The notes under the pieces: model-generated | What the model saw: the letters and a program-made list of their open reading frames with translations, nothing else | The model's database searches: none | What the model was told of the DNA's origin: nothing | Program-made: the position numbers and the translations under genes | Shown: positions 6,001-44,209 of the stretch, one piece after another | How the letters are laid out: the number at the start of each line of letters is the position of its first letter | Numbering within the stretch: position 1 is the first letter of the stretch | Origin: Longibaculum muris | GTDB lineage: Bacteria > Bacillota_I > Bacilli_A > Erysipelotrichales > Coprobacillaceae | DNA length: 64,000 nucleotides | NCBI RefSeq assembly: GCF_004343035.1 | Contig: NZ_SMCQ01000003.1 | Span: forward strand, 1-64,000 | Direction of reading: 5' to 3'

Positions 6001-6180
6001 AAAAAGAGACTTCATCCAAAGGACGAAATCTCGTGGTACCACCTTTATTCGTTATCAATTTGATAACCTCATTCACCTTAACGCAGTTTCACGACAATCT
6101 CTTTCGAGTGTAGCTATTAGGGAGTACCTTTATAAGTCTTGAGAAACTTTCACCAGCCGTTTCCTCTCTAAACAATAACC
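6001..6180 (-). promoter_or_regulatory. T-box leader, threonine specifier ACT
   Basis: On the minus strand the leader shows Stem I with GGCTGGTGAAAG, a specifier region GGT-ACT-CCC (ACT at 6125-6123), the T-box AAGGTGGTACCACG (about 6047-6034) and a competing terminator GAGATTTCGTCC/GGATGAAGTCTC followed by T5 (6034-6001). ACT is a threonine codon and the operon contains thrS, so sequence and context agree. Uncharged tRNA-Thr should stabilise the antiterminator and turn the operon on. Confidence 0.92.
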
Positions 6181-6215
6181 TTATACAGACATATCCTAAA
6201 TCATTGCTTGTAGCA

Positions 6216-22911: not shown

Positions 22912-24684
22912 ATGAATCTACTTAACGCAATAAAAACAGTTCGACTCTTTAAAAAACAAGAAGAATTAATTCCTTTAAAAACAAAATGGAGCCAACAATT
23001 AGACCCTAATCATGTTTTAGAGGACTATCCTCGTCCTCAAATGAAAAGAGATAATTATATCAATCTTAATGGTTTTTATCACTATGCAATTAACCAGCAA
23101 AAAGAAATCCCACATCTTTTTCAAGGTGAAATCCTCGTCCCCTTTTCTCCAGAAAGTCAATTGTCACAAGTTCAAAAACAATTGTTACCAGGTTATTATT
23201 TATGGTATGAGAGAGTCTTACCACCTTTAACCAAAGAAAATGGTCACTACCTTCTTCACTTTGGAGCAGTCGATCAAATTGCTGATATCTATATCAACCA
23301 TCAACATGTTTTTCATCATGTCGGAGGATATTTACCTTTTCAAATAGATATAACCAATCACTTAAATCACCAACATGATATTCTCACAATCCGTGTTACT
23401 GATGACTCTGATACTTCCTATCACGCTAAAGGAAAACAACGACTCAAACGTGGTGGCATGTACTATACTGCTCAAAGTGGAATTTGGCAAAGCGTTTGGC
23501 TTGAATGGGTAGGCGAGACATATATTGAAGATGTAAAAATCACTCCTGATTATGACCATGACCAGATTCATGTAAAAGTTATTTTAAATCATGAATATCA
23601 TCAAGATATTCAATTTCAAATCAACCAACAAGTACCCGTTTTAATGCAAGCTTCTTATAATATTATTGATGTGACATTACCTATTGAAAATAAAATATCT
23701 TGGGATGTCAATTCTCCTTATCTCTATAAGCTTTATGTATCTATTCAAGATGATAAAGTAGAATGTTATTTTGCAATGCGTTGTTTTTCAATTGAAAAAG
23801 ATGATCAACAAATTCCAAGAATTTGTTTAAACCATCAACCTATCTTTATGAATGGCGTTTTAGATCAAGGTTATTGGCCAGATGGTTTATATACTGCACC
23901 AACCGATGAAGCTTTGATATATGATATTGAAACGATGAAATCATTAGGCTTTAATATGATTCGTAAACACATCAAAATTGAACCTGCTCGATGGTATTAT
24001 CATTGTGATCGTTTAGGAATGATTGTTTGGCAAGATATGATCAATGGTGGTGAAGCTTATCATACATGGTTTGTTACTTGGATGCCTTCTTTATTAAGTT
24101 GGACAAAGAAACATATTTCTGATAAACATCTTCGATTACTGGCAAGAAAAGATGCTCATGGTCGTGAAGAATGGATCAAAGAATGTGAATTAACAATTGA
24201 ACATCTTTCACATTTTCCTTGTATCAGTACATGGGTTTTATTTAATGAAGGATGGGGACAATTTGCTACTGAGAAGATTACGCAATATGTTCGTCAACTT
24301 GACCCAACAAGGCTCATTGATTCAGCAAGTGGTTGGTTTGACCAAAAATGTGGAGATTTTAGAAGTGAACATCATTATTTTGATGAACCAAAAATCATTT
24401 CTGATCCCCGTGCATTTGTCTTATCTGAATGTGGTGGATATGCCTGCCCGATTGAAAAGCATATCAGTGTTCATCAAGTATATGGCTATCAAAACTACAC
24501 AAGTATACAAGAATTAACTCAGGCTTATGAAACTTTATATCAAAAAACCATTAACCCTCTGATTGAAAAAGGATTATGTGCCTGTGTTTATACCCAATTA
24601 AGTGATATTGAAGAAGAAGTAAATGGTTTATTAACTTATGATCGTAAAATTTGTAAAATTATTCAAAAAGAAAGGAATCACTAA
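22912..24684 (+). CDS. Glycoside hydrolase family 2 protein (beta-galactosidase/glucuronidase-like)
   Basis: A cytoplasmic 590-residue protein without a signal peptide. It has an N-terminal jelly-roll sugar-binding domain (about 30-190), a short immunoglobulin-like segment and a TIM barrel from about 290. The acid/base glutamate is in WVLFNEGWGQF and the likely nucleophile in FVLSECGGY. This is shorter than LacZ and matches the compact GH2 group; the sugar specificity is not predictable. The ATG at 22912 follows AAAGGAGGTG. Its stop overlaps the stop of the convergent MFS transporter gene. Confidence 0.87.
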   Translation: MNLLNAIKTVRLFKKQEELIPLKTKWSQQLDPNHVLEDYPRPQMKRDNYINLNGFYHYAINQQKEIPHLFQGEILVPFSPESQLSQVQKQLLPGYYLWYERVLPPLTKENGHYLLHFGAVDQIADIYINHQHVFHHVGGYLPFQIDITNHLNHQHDILTIRVTDDSDTSYHAKGKQRLKRGGMYYTAQSGIWQSVWLEWVGETYIEDVKITPDYDHDQIHVKVILNHEYHQDIQFQINQQVPVLMQASYNIIDVTLPIENKISWDVNSPYLYKLYVSIQDDKVECYFAMRCFSIEKDDQQIPRICLNHQPIFMNGVLDQGYWPDGLYTAPTDEALIYDIETMKSLGFNMIRKHIKIEPARWYYHCDRLGMIVWQDMINGGEAYHTWFVTWMPSLLSWTKKHISDKHLRLLARKDAHGREEWIKECELTIEHLSHFPCISTWVLFNEGWGQFATEKITQYVRQLDPTRLIDSASGWFDQKCGDFRSEHHYFDEPKIISDPRAFVLSECGGYACPIEKHISVHQVYGYQNYTSIQELTQAYETLYQKTINPLIEKGLCACVYTQLSDIEEEVNGLLTYDRKICKIIQKERNH

Positions 24685-25880
24685 GATTCCTTTTTCGCAT
24701 GCTGATCAACATCCTCAACACTTATAAACATACAAATTGTCCCTAATACTGAAATAATCGCACCAATCATCAAGACTTTAGAAACACCTAATGCATCTAA
24801 TAAAACCCCACCAGCTAAACTTGCAAAAACACTTGCAAGCGTCATGGCTCCAGTAACCAAAGCCTGACCTTTATTCATATCATGTTCTTCAACCAATTGA
24901 CTCACATAATAAACCGAAGCTGGGATAAATACTGCATATGCTAACATTTGCATCACTTGAGCAACATAAATCATAAACATATTTACAGCAAAATAAGTTA
25001 AAACATGTTTCACACTAAAGAATACAGCTGAAATAAGCATCATATTCTTGCAGCCAATCTTTTGTTGGAATTTTGTAAACAATGCCATTGTTGGTAATTC
25101 CAATACAGCAGCTAAGAAAATAGCATTTCCCATATCAGCACTGTTTCCATTAATATGATTTACAACTTGAATAAAGAAATTATTAATCACAGAATGATCA
25201 AAGAATAATAAAACAGTTGCCACTAATAATAACATAAAAGTTTTATATTTCTTAATAAATTGTCCCATTGATAATTGATCATGTTCAGTTTCTTTTTCTT
25301 GATGAACAATTTCATCCTTATGTCCTGGTAAAAAGAAAGTATAAACAAAGAACAATGCACAAAGTGATAATCCAACATAGAAAAATGGTAATAATTCAGG
25401 ACTAAATGCAGCCACTAAATTTCCTAAAATAAGTGACATCACAGCATAAGCAACTGAACCAATTCCTCTTGCTAAACCAAAGTTAATATGAATACCATTT
25501 TTTTCAAAAGCAAATGTTAATGAATTAATAAATGGTTGCAATGTTAACATTAAAGTAAATGCAACAATTGTTAAAACAACCATGACCATTGAAGCCCCAG
25601 TTAAAAAACATAATACTAATGATAAAGCAATAATCACAACCAAAATCAAAGAAATCAACATTCTTAAAGATAATTTAGATGTTTTATCCATATAAGAAGC
25701 GACAGCTGGTTGTCCAAAAACAGCCAAAATATTAGAAATTGCTAAAACAGTTCCTATTGTTGTATTCGTAAATCCTTTATCTAATAAAAACACAGATGCA
25801 TATCCTATCATTGAACAGCAAAGCATCCAATAAAAGCCATGAATACACGCATAACGAATATCTAAAGACTTATTTTCCAT
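24681..25880 (-). CDS. MFS transporter (LacY/nucleoside-permease-like group)
   Basis: A 399-residue permease with twelve predicted helices. The N-terminus (YACIHGFYWMLCCSMIGYASVFLLDKGF) and central loop are of the type seen in the LacY-like MFS_1 group. It is convergent with the GH2 gene, the stop codons overlapping by three bases, so co-regulation with it would need separate promoters. The substrate is unknown; an oligosaccharide is possible by analogy. Confidence 0.82.
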   Translation of the reverse strand: MENKSLDIRYACIHGFYWMLCCSMIGYASVFLLDKGFTNTTIGTVLAISNILAVFGQPAVASYMDKTSKLSLRMLISLILVVIIALSLVLCFLTGASMVMVVLTIVAFTLMLTLQPFINSLTFAFEKNGIHINFGLARGIGSVAYAVMSLILGNLVAAFSPELLPFFYVGLSLCALFFVYTFFLPGHKDEIVHQEKETEHDQLSMGQFIKKYKTFMLLLVATVLLFFDHSVINNFFIQVVNHINGNSADMGNAIFLAAVLELPTMALFTKFQQKIGCKNMMLISAVFFSVKHVLTYFAVNMFMIYVAQVMQMLAYAVFIPASVYYVSQLVEEHDMNKGQALVTGAMTLASVFASLAGGVLLDALGVSKVLMIGAIISVLGTICMFISVEDVDQHAKKES

Positions 25881-28930: not shown

Positions 28931-29818
28931 TTATGAATTGACTGTTAAGAAATGATAAAGCGCACCTAATAAATTCGCATCATTATGATATTGACAAGTG
29001 CAAACAACTGGTCTAATTTTTGCATGTGTAAAAGTTTTAAAAATTTCATCTAATCGAAGATTCACTTCATCCAATAAATCTTCTCTAACACTAATGGCTC
29101 CACCAATGACAATCTTTTCTGGATCATAAGCATATTGCAAATTATAAATACCATTTGCTAAAACAAAATAAAACTTATCAACAACCTTTTCATAAATTGG
29201 ATCTTCATGATAATGATCAAAGATTTCTTTAGCATCCAAAGAAGCGACATCCACTCCTTTTAATCTGGCAACTTCTCTAACCACTGCCATTGTAGAACCA
29301 ACATCTGACCATGTTTTCATAGCATGTGTTGTAAAATCAAAATCCGCAATCATATAACCAAATTCACCACCATGAAGATGCTTTCCTTTATGGATACGTT
29401 TATCCTTAACCACTGCACCTCCAATACCTGTTCCACTTACTATAAAACAACAATCATTAACATCACTTGCAGCCCCTTTCCAAACTTCTGCTAAAGCTGC
29501 ACAATTCGCATCATTTTCCATCTCTACACGAACATGAATCCGATTTTCTAAATCTTCTTTAATCTTAGGACCATGAATATAATCCAAAGCACTTGAACCA
29601 CCAATGATTCCCTTTTCACTATCAACAGCCCCTGGCATACTTAATGCAAGTCCTTCAATATTTTCATAACCATGAAAAACATCTTCAATGATTTGATACA
29701 TTTTCTCAATTGTATCAGGACTCTTTATAGAATCTGTTTTTAAGATTTCTCCTTCTTCATTTAAAACCCCAATCTTCATTGATGTTCCACCAATATCAAT
29801 ACATAAAAATTGTTTCAC
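28931..29818 (-). CDS. ROK-family sugar kinase
   Basis: A 295-residue kinase of the ROK family with the phosphate-1 motif CIDIGGTSMKIG, catalytic region ENDANCAALAE and ATP motif VSGTGIGGAVV. The CXCGXXGC zinc motif of classical ROK glucokinases is absent after HLHGGEFGYM, so it is closer to BglK-like beta-glucoside kinases; the substrate remains open. The start is a GTG with an excellent GGAGGAAATCAAA upstream. Confidence 0.85.
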   Translation of the reverse strand: MKQFLCIDIGGTSMKIGVLNEEGEILKTDSIKSPDTIEKMYQIIEDVFHGYENIEGLALSMPGAVDSEKGIIGGSSALDYIHGPKIKEDLENRIHVRVEMENDANCAALAEVWKGAASDVNDCCFIVSGTGIGGAVVKDKRIHKGKHLHGGEFGYMIADFDFTTHAMKTWSDVGSTMAVVREVARLKGVDVASLDAKEIFDHYHEDPIYEKVVDKFYFVLANGIYNLQYAYDPEKIVIGGAISVREDLLDEVNLRLDEIFKTFTHAKIRPVVCTCQYHNDANLLGALYHFLTVNS

Positions 29819-29920
29819 TTTGATTTCCTCCTTGACTCTTATTTTATTATAAGGGTCACATATTTGTCATTATTTTTTAACATTTTTTTCAAAAAATGAC
29901 ACAAAAAGTCCATAACTTTT

Positions 29921-29929
29921 TGTTATGAT
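29921..29929 (+). promoter_or_regulatory. Extended -10 promoter of the candidate small RNA
   Basis: TGTTATGAT (TG, one base, TATGAT) predicts a start about seven bases downstream at 29936, exactly at the base of the first hairpin of the candidate RNA. A -35 match is poor (ACAAAA at 17-base spacing). Confidence 0.5.
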
Positions 29930-29935
29930 ATAAGA

Positions 29936-30041
29936 GGATGATAAAGAACCTCATATTTATCATCTACAATTCAATCCTTTTCCTCTATATCAAAGGAACA
30001 TAGGTGCAAGACCCTCATCTTGCACCTATTTGTTTTCTTTT
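29936..30041 (+). ncRNA. Candidate three-hairpin small RNA with CCUC loops
   Basis: Three consecutive stems are seen. Hairpin 1 is GATGATAAA/TTTATCATC (29937-29945, 29956-29964), perfect 9 bp, loop GAACCTCATA. Hairpin 2 is TCCTTT/AAAGGA (29975-29980, 29992-29997), loop TCCTCTATATC. Hairpin 3 is a perfect 12-bp stem (30000-30011, 30018-30029), loop CCCTCA, followed by TTTGTTTTCTTTT. Every loop contains CCTC, complementary to the GAGG core of Shine-Dalgarno sequences, as in trans-acting sRNAs with C-rich loops. The 3' end overlaps the aroK stop in antisense. It is not recognised as a known family. Confidence 0.6.
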
Positions 30042-30523
30042 ATACAGTTTATAATATTGTTTATGAATTCATCAATTGTTACATCATTCATGATATGATA
30101 GTCACAACTATCAAGATACAATTGATGTCTTTCTTTATATAAATCAAAAAGTTTTTCTGCTCCATCTTTTAATAAAGGACGAGAAGATGTCTCAACATCT
30201 TCTAATATCATAGAAATAGGACGATCAATATAAATCACAATCCCATTTTCTTTTAAAGCCTTCATATTTTCTGGATTTTTTATAACTCCGCCACCTGTTG
30301 AAATAATATATCCATTCAACTTAGAAACTTCCTGACAACAGATTGTTTCTCTTTCTCTAAAATAAGCTTCTGATATAGCAAACATTTCTGGAATTGACAT
30401 TTGATATTTCTTTTCTAAATATTCATCAATATCAATAACTGGTCTTGCAAGTTTTTCTGCCAACAATAATGAAACTGTTGTTTTTCCACATCCCATAATT
30501 CCAATTAATACAATATTTTTCAT
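30026..30523 (-). CDS. aroK: Shikimate kinase
   Basis: Phosphorylates shikimate at the 3-hydroxyl. The 165-residue protein has the P-loop GIMGCGKTTV, the shikimate-binding DIDEYLEKK and STGGGVI, and the lid SRPLL. It is the last gene of the six-gene aromatic operon; AGGAGA precedes the ATG. No proper minus-strand terminator follows: the hairpin over the stop codon has its T-run on the other strand. Confidence 0.96.
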   Translation of the reverse strand: MKNIVLIGIMGCGKTTVSLLLAEKLARPVIDIDEYLEKKYQMSIPEMFAISEAYFRERETICCQEVSKLNGYIISTGGGVIKNPENMKALKENGIVIYIDRPISMILEDVETSSRPLLKDGAEKLFDLYKERHQLYLDSCDYHIMNDVTIDEFINNIINCIKENK

Positions 30524-36105: not shown

Positions 36106-36386
36106 AAATAAAAATCTCCCATCCATAAGGACGAGAGATAGATCTTTCGTGTTACCACCTTAGTTTATTTCTATATCACTATAGAAACCTTCATAAGTAC
36201 GCCTATTGTTAGGTTCATACTCTGATGCGATAACGGGCATTCCCGGACTAAGCCTACTTTATTCAGCCGTCTACTCCAAGATGAATTCAATTATATTCCA
36301 ACATTCTTTTTCACCAACCAAGAATTCTCTACGCTTGTTCAATAATCTACTCTTTCTTTTCACTGTATTTATATCAGTAGTTTGTT
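36106..36386 (-). promoter_or_regulatory. T-box leader, phenylalanine specifier TTC
   Basis: Minus-strand leader of the aromatic operon. Stem I carries CTTGGTTGGTGAAAAAG, the specifier region reads GAA-TTC-ATC-TTGGAGTAG (TTC at 36285-36283), the T-box is AAGGTGGTAACACGA (about 36161-36147) and the terminator is ATCTCTCGTCC/GGATGGGAGAT plus T5 (36139-36106). TTC is a Phe codon, in keeping with pheA in the operon. Confidence 0.92.
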
Positions 36387-39387: not shown

Positions 39388-39638
39388 AAAAAAAGTCCCT
39401 CCATCCCATAAGGACGAGAGAGACCATCGCGTTACCACCTTAATTTATTGTTATATCACTATAACAACCTCATCGAGTACCAACATACTCTAACACTATA
39501 ACGGGCGTTCCCGTGTTAGCCTACTTGATTCAGCCACCTACTCCAAGATGTATTCAATGACAATCCAAGATTCTTTTTCACCAACCAAGAACTCTCTACG
39601 CTTGTCTTTATCATTTACTCTTTCTTTTCACTGTATTT
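39388..39638 (-). promoter_or_regulatory. T-box leader, tyrosine specifier TAC
   Basis: Homologous to the Phe leader. Stem I has CTTGGTTGGTGAAAAAG, the specifier region is GAA-TAC-ATC-TTGGAGTAG (TAC at 39552-39550), the T-box AAGGTGGTAACGCGA (about 39441-39427) and the terminator pairs the CTCGTCC side with GGATGGAGGGAC followed by T7. Only the middle base of the specifier distinguishes it from TTC of copy 1. Confidence 0.92.
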
Positions 39639-39644
39639 AAACTT

Positions 39645-43972: not shown

Positions 43973-43985
43973 GTGCACAGATTAT

Positions 43986-44096
43986 GTCTTTTCTCATCCG
44001 GACTATACCGTCGGTTCTGGAATTACACCAGATCAGCCGCAATTGCGGGTCATGGACTTTTACCATCGGTAGGGACTTACACCCTGCCACAAAGAC
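43986..44096 (-). promoter_or_regulatory. FMN riboswitch (RFN element)
   Basis: All conserved RFN segments are visible on the minus strand: closing stem GTCTTT/AAAGAC, GCAGGGTGTAAGTCCC, ACCGATGGTAAAAGTCC, TGATCTGGTGTAATTCCAG, ACCGACGGTATAGTCCGGAT and GAGAAAAGA. FMN binding should favour the terminator that follows, repressing ribU. Confidence 0.96.
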
Positions 44097-44209
44097 GCTA
44101 TTTAATTGTGAAACAGGTCAATGATAAACACTATCTGCACTATTATCATATACCTTTTCTATCATTTTGTAAATTTATATGTTAAAATTTGTGAAAAGGA
44201 GTGAGTTTT

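Follow-up and report, generated by a model that had tools for sequence, protein, structure and literature searches.

The intergenic region between a ROK-family gene and aroK (shikimate kinase) of Longibaculum muris raises the question of whether an independent small RNA gene lies there and, if so, on what its product would act. The region belongs to a window of 64,000 nucleotides (the whole stretch of DNA that was analyzed), and an initial annotation had placed in it an unannotated small RNA with three hairpins, each displaying CCTC in its loop. Erysipelotrichales are common gut bacteria, and their small RNAs seem hardly described, none having been found in a limited literature search.

The minimum-free-energy fold of the region consisted of exactly the three plus-strand stems proposed (Table 1), with a z value of -6.4, and none of 200 shuffled sequences folded as well. 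Each loop carries CCTC in this genome, and hairpin 3 is followed by the T-rich tail that had been described; a plus-strand terminator was called at this hairpin and tail, against an average of 0.1 terminators per region in shuffles. The choice of strand is left undecided by fold energy alone, as the minus strand also folds well, and the plus strand is favored because of the terminator tail and because six plus-strand G-U cells would become A-C mismatches if read on the minus strand. Hairpin 3 may also serve as a terminator for aroK from the opposite strand. An extended -10 was found just 5' of hairpin 1, as annotated, and the spacing of its TGN-TA motif to hairpin 1 is constant in the species carrying it; it was absent from the list of a simple promoter scan because it has no -35. 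From these signals we infer plus-strand transcription that would be driven by the extended -10 and end at hairpin 3, producing an RNA of about 105 nt as an independent unit.

Table 1. Positions in the window of the predicted small RNA gene, its parts, and the neighboring genes.
Feature	Position	Strand	Observation
ROK-family gene	28931..29818	-	divergent neighbor; not beside the RNA in genus g8
TGACACAAAA box	29897..29906	+	upstream of promoter; possible regulator site; identity 0.91, 9 species
Extended -10 TGTTATGAT	29921..29929	+	TGN-TA motif in 8/9 species
Small RNA gene	29936..30041	+	~105 nt; predicted start; end deduced from terminator
Hairpin 1, loop GAACCTCATA	29937..29964	+	arms GATGATAAA/TTTATCATC; present in 9/9 species; 2 compensatory pairs
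Conserved core AATTCAATCCTTTTCCTCTATATC	29968..29991	+	presumed pairing region; 23/24 columns invariant, 9/9 species
Hairpin 2 TCCTTT/AAAGGA, loop TCCTCTATATC	29975..29997	+	weak; right arm varies
Hairpin 3 and T-rich tail	30000..30041	+	intrinsic terminator (terminator call); arms ATAGGTGCAAGA/TCTTGCACCTAT at 30000-30029, then TTTGTTTTCTTTT; 4 compensatory pairs
aroK (shikimate kinase)	30026..30523	-	convergent neighbor in 9/9 species

A DNA search of 40 genomes gave six clear homologs, and a covariance model gave nine species, including that of the window, in five of the 20 genera of the family (E per genome, 2.5e-17 to 6e-13). Since four of the nine species share one genus, the number of independent species is closer to five or six. 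One copy of the RNA was found per genome with the model; further matches were weak, one kind arising from opposite-strand reading of the palindromic hairpin 3 region and the other from a duplicated piece in G007. In that genome (contig C71, L004:1620-2300), two copies of the aroK 3' part lie beside the RNA with about 350 bases of unrelated sequence in between, and the second copy is accompanied by a repeat of hairpin 3; the duplicated region had no Rfam match. The element itself matched no Rfam model, those of LhrC and RsaE included, at the gathering score or at E values up to 10.

An exact scan with a 20-nt part of the core, covering one genome each for about 85,000 species, returned eight records, of which seven were Erysipelotrichaceae, two of these bearing the name Candidatus Stoquefichus (Erysipelotrichales). 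The eighth, from a Jiulongibacter MAG distant from this family, is attributed to chance because the surrounding hairpins are absent (fold of only -5.5 kcal/mol). Chance likewise accounts for the extra matches, all lacking the hairpins, that were obtained in g12, g34, g39, and g58 when the core was searched with 3 mismatches in 316 genomes of the order. The element was not found in the viral contigs searched, and the unfiltered model gave only chance scores (E of 0.2 or worse) at the aroK loci of genera without the RNA. The other genera examined, among them g18 with its retained ROK-aroK order, did not show the element at aroK.

Mean pairwise identity in the alignment of the nine species was 0.40 on the ROK side upstream, 0.91 for the TGACACAAAA box, and 0.72 for the extended -10; from 0.48 just 5' of hairpin 1 it rose to 0.93 in both stem 1 arms, a sharp onset of conservation at the predicted start. 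Farther into the RNA, values of 0.99 for the core and 0.85-0.91 for stem 3 compared with 0.65 and 0.48 for loops 1 and 3, respectively. The core consensus is AAUUCAAUCCUUUUCCUCUAUAUC, 24 nt in which all but the last base are invariant in the nine species. Six compensatory pairs were counted in stems 1 and 3; shuffles gave 1.5, with none of 500 reaching six, and slid controls yielded 0 or 1. The structure string used for this count had been set manually from the window's own fold, the alignment of nine was fitted to the model, and the count was unchanged with a MAFFT alignment of seven. The proposal of an independent small RNA gene is thus well supported by conservation, covariation, and the promoter and terminator signals, and a covariation-supported family with an almost invariant core provides a definite sequence for probing and mutation. 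Conservation of the three loops, which had been named as a test, held in part: loop 2 hardly varies, nor does its flank, but CCTC is kept in loop 1 of eight and loop 3 of six of the nine species, and in all of them only in loop 2. Given this identity profile, the signature of the RNA consists of loop 2 plus the flank on its 5' side; the three loops do not count equally toward it.

The element could instead be a gene for a short hydrophobic peptide (MIKNLIFIIYNSILFLYIKGT in the window): hairpin 1 has an ATG at its base, and the g8 species have a comparable open frame. Indels in g6 and g7 shift the core into another frame, however, the core shows no third-position variation, and no space would remain for a ribosome-binding site if transcription begins at hairpin 1. 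A core that has no fixed reading frame argues strongly against a peptide gene, and we regard one as highly improbable.

The flanking genes were considered as possible reasons for the element. On the minus strand, which also folds well, the ROK gene lies downstream in g1, g6, g7, and g13, and the element could accordingly be read as a leader or operator of that gene. A constant position upstream of ROK was not observed, however: the g8 species retain the element with no ROK beside it, and where the neighbor could be read it differs, being asd in G022 and an ATPase-like gene in G007 and G049 (names read from translations, not from a family search). The sequence between the box and ROK is not conserved (identity 0.40), and the terminator tail and G-U pairs favor the plus strand. 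Because the element persists where other genes replace ROK, a leader function is largely refuted by the g8 sequences and would now be surprising.

On the other side, aroK adjoins the RNA in every species and hairpin 3 possibly terminates in both directions, which could point to a cis-antisense regulator of aroK or merely to a bidirectional terminator. The 3' end of the RNA had been described as antisense to the aroK stop, but this overlap is not conserved: the aroK ORF ends 102 and 114 nt past the core start in AP9 and G012, respectively, so that the RNA does not overlap aroK there. A bidirectional terminator would also leave the promoter, hairpin 1, and the core unexplained, and a role centered on aroK is considered very unlikely.

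We favor as probable an independent sRNA of about 105 nt that would act in trans at the Shine-Dalgarno regions of several mRNAs. The TTCAAT and TCCTCTATA parts of the core are predicted to be mostly unpaired, giving the conserved, unpaired CU-rich region expected of a trans-acting CU-rich sRNA, and the core is complementary to the Shine-Dalgarno-like sequence AGAGGAAAAGG. Loop 2 would make the first contact with an mRNA, the exposed CU-rich core UUCAAUCCUUUUCCUCUAUAUC (CCUUUUCCUCU) would pair with Shine-Dalgarno regions rich in purines, and several mRNAs would thereby be kept from initiating translation.

RoxS/RsaE is a Firmicutes sRNA with C-rich pairing motifs of the kind proposed here. The UCCC motif of RsaE (PMC4132741) differs from the present core, and the Rfam result also sets the two apart. 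Blocking of ribosome binding is the most likely mode of action by likeness to LhrC and IsrR, which use C-rich loops for this in Firmicutes (PMC4132741, PMC9410917). IsrR of Staphylococcus resembles the RNA in having several unpaired C-rich regions, separate stem-loops, a terminator, taxonomically limited conservation, and conserved upstream regulator sites, which in IsrR are Fur boxes (PMC9410917); it differs in being 174 nt long with runs of C, whereas the core here is of mixed C and U. The LhrC family of Listeria likewise has redundant CU-rich motifs in loops and in a single-stranded stretch, and its terminator loop contributes to binding (PMC4132741), but LhrC is multicopy, carries UCCC, and is under LisRK control, whereas the present RNA is single copy and displays CCUC.

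As to its own regulation, the TGACACAAAA box is retained in species without ROK beside the RNA. In several species, the box and its neighbor (29897-29920) make up direct repeats with a spacing of about 11 bases, an arrangement that can be likened to OmpR-family sites; a regulator of response-regulator type is a guess from this repeat-like form. Only tentatively, and as a doubtful extension, may the RNA be seen as a new sRNA family of a Stoquefichus-like clade, with the entire 24-nt core functionally constrained and the RNA serving as hub regulator of a regulon that a response regulator would control through the TGACACAAAA box.

Targets were sought among 413 genes (about 15% of the genome) in 20 stretches totaling 400 kb, which had been picked in contig order rather than randomly. 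In this partial sample, the core paired with start regions no better than mononucleotide-shuffled cores did: of 60 shuffles, 16 had a lower mean and 20 had a lower top ten. The loop-2 complement TATAGAGGA before ATG was about equal to its control when summed over 7 genomes, with no enrichment; the AGAGGAAAAG pattern occurred 43 times against 18 in the control, about twice, the reversed control being unfair for a purine-rich Shine-Dalgarno motif. No predicted target was common to all species. The annotated block of ribosome binding in trans is plausible from the exposed CU-rich core but is not established by these target tests.

The lack of excess over shuffles would also suit a genuine small RNA whose core binds a protein or one dedicated partner RNA and not many Shine-Dalgarno regions. 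The usual sRNA seed is 7-10 nt, and here 24 nt are nearly unchanged across five genera. Against this reading, complementarity to the core nowhere exceeds 17 of 20 bases in the nine genomes, the gene itself excepted, and the core is CU-rich like the C-rich motifs of Shine-Dalgarno-pairing sRNAs in low-GC Gram-positives (PMC4132741, PMC9410917). Such a protein- or partner-binding core is judged unlikely.

For the favored trans-acting RNA, two candidate targets picked among many comparisons are leads. A NUDIX gene has a AGAGGAAAAG ribosome-binding site common to g6 and g7 and is missing from the window's own genome, g8, and g13. An MFS transporter gene (window 24681-25880) gave the best pairing in the sample (-21.4 kcal/mol), with -23.9 in AP9 and -19.6 in the best g7 relative; it is a lead only, because pairing is weak in the other g6 species (only -15.3) and in g8 and g13 (-2 to -16). 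The match that had been reported between loop 1 and the ribosome-binding region of the 6544-6807 gene (minus strand, TATGAGGT) was found, with 9 complementary bases and -10.8 kcal/mol, but loop 1 varies among relatives and the match is best regarded as chance. Elsewhere in the window, three T-box leaders and one FMN riboswitch were observed on the minus strand (39407-39640, 36124-36372, 6016-6213, and 43982-44100).
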